Of a DNA stretch of 52,728 nucleotides, positions 17,872-18,681 are shown piece by piece. Positions within the stretch are counted from its first letter, which is position 1. Every line of letters starts with the position of its first letter. This DNA comes from Nitrospirota bacterium (GTDB lineage Bacteria; Nitrospirota; Thermodesulfovibrionia; Thermodesulfovibrionales; JdFR-86): assembly GCA_016207905.1 (NCBI GenBank), contig JACQZC010000001.1, positions 1 to 52,728 on the forward strand, given 5' to 3'. A program made the position numbers and the translations under genes. The notes under the pieces were generated by a model. The model was not told the origin of the DNA. It saw only the letters and a program-made list of their open reading frames with translations, and ran no database searches.

Positions 17872-18681
17872 TTACTTACCCCAGTTGCCAGTAACAAGCT
17901 GGATAAGCGAATCTGCTGGAACGAGGCTGACAATTACAGAGCCATCTGGAAGGATTATAGCAGGTGTGCCTGTAATGCCGAATTCCTTTGCAAGATTGAT
18001 ATTGTTGTCAACTTCTTCGGATTTACATGTGGCTTTTGGAAGAGGTTTCCCCTCGAATGCATTTTCAAGTGCCTTCAGGGACTTCTCGCACACGATGGAC
18101 TTTGCCTTCTCATAAGCAGTGGGATGCATTGGAAGTGGATAGAGCTTTATAAAAAACACTATATCCTTTGTTTTTGCCAGAACCTTCTTCATCTCCAGAT
18201 GAAGTTCCCTGCAGGCAGGTCATTCAGGGTCCGAAAAGACTATCACCTTATATCCGGCAGATGTCTCTCCCATCTGAAGTGCCTCATCGAGTGGAATCGT
18301 TGACACATCCACCTTCATGAGTTCCTGTCGTCTTTGGGATGTAATATCTACCTTTTCCTTTACATCTATTATGATGCCCTGTATGATTTTTCCTTTTGAG
18401 AAATCAATATATAGAATATCTTTTGGTCCCTGCCCAAGTTTAATATCCACTTCCCAGAGACCCCGTACAGGGCTTAATCGAACATCTATAACCTCTGAGA
18501 TTACGCCCGGGGCAATGGCATTGAGGATTCCGAATGCCTCCTTTTTTGTAAGTGTATGACACTTCTGGCAGTCAGGCTCGCATGCACCTGCAATCTCTCC
18601 GAAGCCAAATGTATTACTGCGGAATAAAATAAGGACTCCAAGAAGGAGTAAAACAGATAAAAGCACTACAAACCGTTTCAT
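17872..18681 (-). CDS. DsbC-like thiol:disulfide interchange selenoprotein (UGA = Sec154)
   Basis: One 269-residue protein if the in-frame TGA at 18220-18222 is read as selenocysteine. The first part has a membrane or signal helix (residues 4-20), a CEPDCQKCH segment holding a CxxCH motif (38-42), and a DsbC-like dimerisation domain ending VIVFSDPE. The TGA stands exactly where the first active-site Cys belongs, giving U-P-A-C followed by [10 protein letters not shown]. The frame then continues through the thioredoxin fold with [12 protein letters not shown] and the cis-proline loop [13 protein letters not shown]. Length and domain order match the DsbC/G family. A stem-loop of SECIS type follows the TGA. 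A standard stop and nonsense pseudogene is the alternative; preserved coding on both sides argues against it. Confidence 0.88.
18187..18204 (-). promoter_or_regulatory. Candidate bacterial SECIS element of the DsbC-like gene
   Basis: Beginning 16 nt after the UGA on the minus strand, CTTCATC pairs perfectly with GATGAAG around a UGGA loop (7-bp stem, GG in the apical loop). Distance of the loop G from the UGA (about 24 nt) lies in the range known for bacterial SelB-binding elements. It lies wholly within coding sequence. Confidence 0.8.

Follow-up and report, generated by a model that had tools for sequence, protein, structure and literature searches.

The gene lies on the minus strand of the window (the whole 52,728-nt stretch of Nitrospirota DNA that was analyzed) and consists of one coding frame for a DsbC-like protein, with an in-frame TGA at the first residue of its predicted active site (Table 1). 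A preliminary description, made from the letters of the sequence, had the coordinates and reading of this frame right (18681-17872, with one TGA at 18222-18220), and the N-terminal CxxCH that it placed at residues 38 to 42 was confirmed as CQKCH (18570-18556).

Table 1. Features of the DsbC-like gene and its predicted product, in window positions
Feature	Positions	Strand	Description or basis
Sec-containing DsbC-like protein, whole coding frame	17872..18681	-	269 codons/aa; single in-frame TGA is codon 154; stop TAA at 17874-17872
Hydrophobic N terminus, probably a signal peptide or membrane anchor, ~residues 1-25	18607..18681	-	Sequence; helix 2-19 in model
CxxCH motif C38-Q-K-C41-H42 (CQKCH), candidate heme c attachment site	18556..18570	-	Conserved in homologs
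DsbC_N-like dimerization domain, ~residues 63-114	18340..18495	-	Pfam PF10411 and Foldseek matches to DsbC
Sec U154, first residue of UxxC active site U-P-A-C, in-frame TGA	18220..18222	-	TGA/Cys column
Resolving cysteine C157 of UxxC	18211..18213	-	Invariant in alignments
SECIS, 7-bp stem CTTCATC/GATGAAG, TGGA loop	18187..18204	-	Comparison of Sec and Cys copies
C198, extra cysteine of thioredoxin domain	18088..18090	-	Invariant; aligns with DsbC second cysteine pair
C219, partner of C198	18025..18027	-	Invariant; aligns with DsbC second cysteine pair
T239-P240, cis-proline loop	17962..17967	-	P240 invariant

For a Pfam search of the 269-aa protein, the TGA (selenocysteine, Sec) was entered as Cys. 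Thioredoxin_2 (PF13098) matched on both sides of the TGA with an E value of 5e-16, over the cut-off, and DsbC_N (PF10411) scored 25.5 bits, barely above its cut-off of 25. The top PDB sequence matches found by phmmer were DsbC structures (E = 7e-14), and an AF2 model, built from the window protein and 36 homologs with a mean pLDDT of 92, had DsbC as its top Foldseek matches, followed by DsbP and DsbG. Whole-chain TM-scores of the monomer model against DsbC were only approximately 0.5 to 0.6, indicating that the domains are alike but oriented differently in this model. The NCBIfam DsbC equivalog NF008129 fell below its cut-off (62.6 versus 215 bits); the protein is DsbC-like without being an equivalog of Escherichia coli DsbC. 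Its assignment to the DsbC/G type in the preliminary description is upheld by Pfam, phmmer, and Foldseek, as is the thioredoxin fold on both sides of the TGA, including a conserved cis-Pro loop. Position 154 (Sec or Cys) and C157, together with C198 and C219, were invariant in alignments, giving a CxxC-type center and a second cysteine pair; by alignment with DsbC, C198 and C219 probably form a structural disulfide.

Selenocysteine codon and SECIS hairpin

Homologs were searched for in 396 genomes of the phylum and identified in 224, from which 131 copies were fetched; at the active-site column 69 of these had TGA and 62 had Cys. Adding 80 loci from further contigs gave 178 distinct homolog sequences, with TGA in 71, Cys in 107, and no third state. 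The TGA thus sits at the position of the active-site Cys, as had been proposed. The same description had pointed to Cys-aligned homologs as a check and to homologs ending at the TGA as the contrary outcome; Cys stood opposite the TGA in 107 of the 178, and none terminated at the residue 154 column or had another residue there.

A perfect 7-bp hairpin at SECIS distance, also reported earlier, was found at 18204-18187, beginning 18 nt past the first base of the TGA; its loop is UGGA, with GG central. An Rfam scan of the window gave no match, and single-sequence folding of the window hairpin on its own was not significant (z of approximately -0.9), so reliance was placed on comparing Sec copies with Cys copies. 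In Sec copies, the sequence CTTCATC-NNNN-GATGAAG stands at a constant spacing past the UGA, at nucleotides 18 to 36 as counted from its first base. All seven pairs were formed in 70 of the 71 TGA copies versus 3 of the 107 Cys copies; GG was present in the apical loop of 67 of the 71 Sec copies, and three Sec copies had a compensated stem pair (T-A to C-G). At codons 160 to 165, Sec copies had zero or near-zero synonymous entropy and the entropy of Cys copies was normal; at most of the other codons compared, the two sets differed little. As this third-base freeze occurs in Sec copies only, the hairpin is not explicable by coding constraint alone. Folding energies of nucleotides 12 to 45 also separated Sec from Cys copies (P = 2e-20, a value that is indicative only, as the sequences are related). 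These comparisons indicate that the SECIS is under selection in Sec copies, and they make Sec insertion at codon 154 close to certain.

The genome containing the window (2.03 Mb, 98% complete) was checked for sel genes, as the preliminary description had advised, and selA, selB, selD, and a tRNA-Sec with anticodon TCA (selC) were all present. Its selD gene (L148 1501-2418) has an in-frame TGA of its own, in the context SGUAAK, and is an internal positive control for Sec decoding in this genome. A 6-bp hairpin with a GGC loop follows the UGA of selD. Among the 61 genomes with a Sec copy, G140 (loci L024, L139, and L236) was alone in having no detected selA; no selB over the cut-off was found in it either. 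G140 is called 99% complete and carries two Sec copies and a tRNA-Sec; given this tRNA, its sel genes may be absent from the assembly only, and the case may be an assembly gap or a real oddity.

The CxxCH motif and a candidate heme

CxxCH was identified in 167 of the 178 distinct homologs (66 Sec and 101 Cys), from Nitrospirota and "Deltaproteobacteria." The pairing of Sec with CxxCH had been presented as unusual; it is not peculiar to this gene, as CxxCH is the rule in a broad family, in Cys and Sec forms alike. Nine of the 11 homologs without CxxCH lack the whole motif and the other two have CxxGH (L022) and CxxCY (L220), the motif having mostly been lost as one block (both Cys and the His together). 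The motif His was present in 124 of the 131 fetched copies, and its retention jointly with both Cys favors heme c over a plain dithiol. The window genome encodes ResB, of the system II heme attachment pathway (307 bits), and a multi-CxxCH protein near ccdA, making heme attachment possible, and the hydrophobic N terminus of the candidate protein makes its export probable. From the conservation of the motif, we lean toward the view that the CxxCH, near the mature N terminus, carries covalent heme c.

A substantial share of the probability, if a smaller one, goes to a CxxCH without heme, serving as a second dithiol (a relay or shuttle to the UxxC) or as a metal site, in an enzyme that works purely by thiol/selenol chemistry. 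Such a role would suit a motif adjoining a thioredoxin-fold enzyme and dispensable to 11 homologs, and it agrees with the covariation check, in which no Met or His among the homolog columns tracked the presence of CxxCH and hence no distal axial ligand covaried with it; His161 and His186 are conserved with or without the motif. No cytochrome domain was detected in the protein by Pfam, and residues 21 to 40, before and around the CxxCH, were modeled with low confidence (pLDDT of 51 to 66). However, a plain dithiol has no need of the His that is kept alongside the two Cys, CxxC without His was seen in one homolog only (L220), and a heme c attachment system is present in the genome.

Were heme c carried, disulfide chemistry could plausibly be linked to electron transfer, and the monoheme segment would perhaps be a second electron port of the protein. 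One-electron transfer by this heme, with the cytochrome pool of the periplasm on one side and the UxxC center on the other, is a further step that we regard as doubtful. If true, thiol/selenol folding would be fed by, or would sense, anaerobic respiration, beyond the DsbD/CcdA thiol relay alone, and a heme-bearing CxxCH would be a new electron input into periplasmic disulfide chemistry.

Proposed function, partners, and known relatives

In DsbC, the first active-site residue attacks the substrate disulfide and the second resolves the intermediate, with the dimer cleft holding the unfolded protein. The window protein is predicted to be an exported DsbC-type thiol:disulfide oxidoreductase with Sec as the attacking active-site residue (probability of roughly 0.85), most likely a periplasmic seleno-DsbC acting as an isomerase or reductase. 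SelB would insert Sec at the UGA, guided by the SECIS hairpin immediately downstream, and the Sec would be expected to speed attack on mispaired disulfides and to resist irreversible oxidation. Electrons would likely be donated to the seleno-DsbC by a CcdA-type membrane protein and, less certainly, heme c on the CxxCH would connect the protein to the cytochrome pool by a second route, for single electrons. The window genome has one DsbD_TM match, in a frame of approximately 250 aa that is CcdA sized; a CcdA-type donor is considered likely because no larger DsbD was seen in the genome. VKOR was not found in the window genome.

It is unlikely that the protein, instead of being a general disulfide isomerase, acts mainly as a CcsX/ResA-like reductase of apocytochrome CxxCH cysteines, serving heme attachment in an anaerobe rich in cytochromes. 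In favor of such a role, the genome encodes ResB and also a CcdA-type protein, which usually donates electrons to reductases of this kind. Against it, the layout of the window protein, with a dimerization domain and C198/C219, is that of DsbC and not of ResA or CcmG, and cytochrome maturation genes do not adjoin the gene. Across 93 loci, no conserved redox partner was identified beside the gene, and the neighbors, judged by eye, were mostly housekeeping genes (dapB, relA/spoT-like, and prfA-like). The gene is followed by one for a small, uncharacterized secreted protein in 8 of the 93 loci and directly by one for a membrane sensor kinase in 6, and an NtrC-type regulator cluster was found in 35; L157, L164, L173, and L180 are among the loci with such neighbors.

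The best match to the proposed seleno-DsbC, by both sequence and fold, is DsbC of E. coli, Salmonella, and Yersinia, with which it shares the DsbC_N and thioredoxin domains, a CxxC-type center, the second cysteine pair, and the cis-proline. It differs in that identity in the fold alignments is approximately 20 to 26%, the first Cys is replaced by Sec, and a CxxCH precedes the dimerization domain. A search of the open-access literature turned up no description of a DsbC that carries CxxCH. Monoheme c-type cytochromes resemble it as exported CxxCH proteins in a genome with the ResB system II, whereas the window protein has a thioredoxin/DsbC fold and no distal ligand could be identified in it.

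UxxC selenoproteins were already known, as the preliminary description had stated; passages of two surveys describe DsbG-like and Thioredoxin_2 kinds (PMC1088965, PMC1794560). The DsbG-like proteins (COG1651), reported from the Sargasso Sea (PMC1088965) and bacterial genomes (PMC1794560) and given as NF041057 in a 2026 review (PMC13188914), are, as described in those passages, predicted bacterial selenoproteins of the DsbC/G type with UxxC, like the window protein. The NF041057 model did not match the window protein even at an E value of 1, and the relevant passages of the three papers mention no CxxCH for the DsbG-like proteins. A thiol:disulfide interchange selenoprotein with PF13098 and UxxC (WP_011366075.1) is described from Geobacter and Syntrophus (PMC1794560). 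Compared by that description only, it shares with the window protein PF13098, UxxC, and lineages in which the window family occurs; in contrast, the Geobacteraceae and Desulfuromonadales members of the window family that were seen have Cys. Among the matches listed for 13 genomes reached via "Deltaproteobacteria"/Desulfuromonadales loci, no Thioredoxin_2 protein had an in-frame TGA. A peroxiredoxin-like selenoprotein fused to a domain called DsbC (PMC9402790) also combines Sec with a domain of that name but belongs to Pfam11412 and has another architecture. Reviews list selenoprotein disulfide isomerases from few sequences; here there are dozens of Sec copies, mostly from one bacterial order.

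Decoding of the UGA and exchange between Sec and Cys

Two 98-nt tRNA-Cys(GCA) genes with a tRNA-Sec-like build were identified in the window genome (L010 1497-1594 and L011 1497-1594, both on the minus strand). Both score above the Rfam threshold for tRNA-Sec and are consistent with selC* tRNA-Cys, a tRNA-Sec-like type that has been reported from Nitrospirae, sometimes with an opal anticodon (PMC7609411). Genes of this type could suggest that the UGA is read as Cys rather than Sec. This was rejected as very improbable, since the anticodon of both is GCA, the TCA tRNA is called tRNA-Sec and has G preceding its CCA, and the hairpin and the selD control indicate SelB-dependent Sec.

A quickly built tree of the 178 protein sequences, made with column 154 left out, required 24 Sec/Cys changes, of which at least eight were forced by well-supported branches; on this tree Sec and Cys forms interchange repeatedly. 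A sequencing error, a disabling mutation (pseudogene), or two separate genes, as a single in-frame stop and a downstream start codon (ORF 18192-17872) might suggest, was rejected as having next to no probability, being contradicted by the homolog comparison: the same codon in 71 distinct homologs, the 24 changes on the tree, a conserved SECIS, and no other stop or residue at that column.

Two of the three fully paired Cys copies, L020 (TGT) and L181 (TGC), have the exact Sec-type hairpin and are apparent SECIS fossils left by recent Sec-to-Cys reversions. SECIS-bearing Sec genes and SECIS-less Cys genes are otherwise separated almost completely, and this separation, together with the apparent fossils, makes the family a good natural experiment on the gain and loss of Sec in one enzyme. 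Sec copies were identified in genomes of the phylum or in records labeled Nitrospirae, Nitrospira(les), Thermodesulfovibrionales, or uncultured bacterium, and the members seen in records labeled Deltaproteobacteria, Desulfuromonas, and Geobacteraceae have Cys. Both forms coexist in 24 of the 92 genomes with fetched copies.
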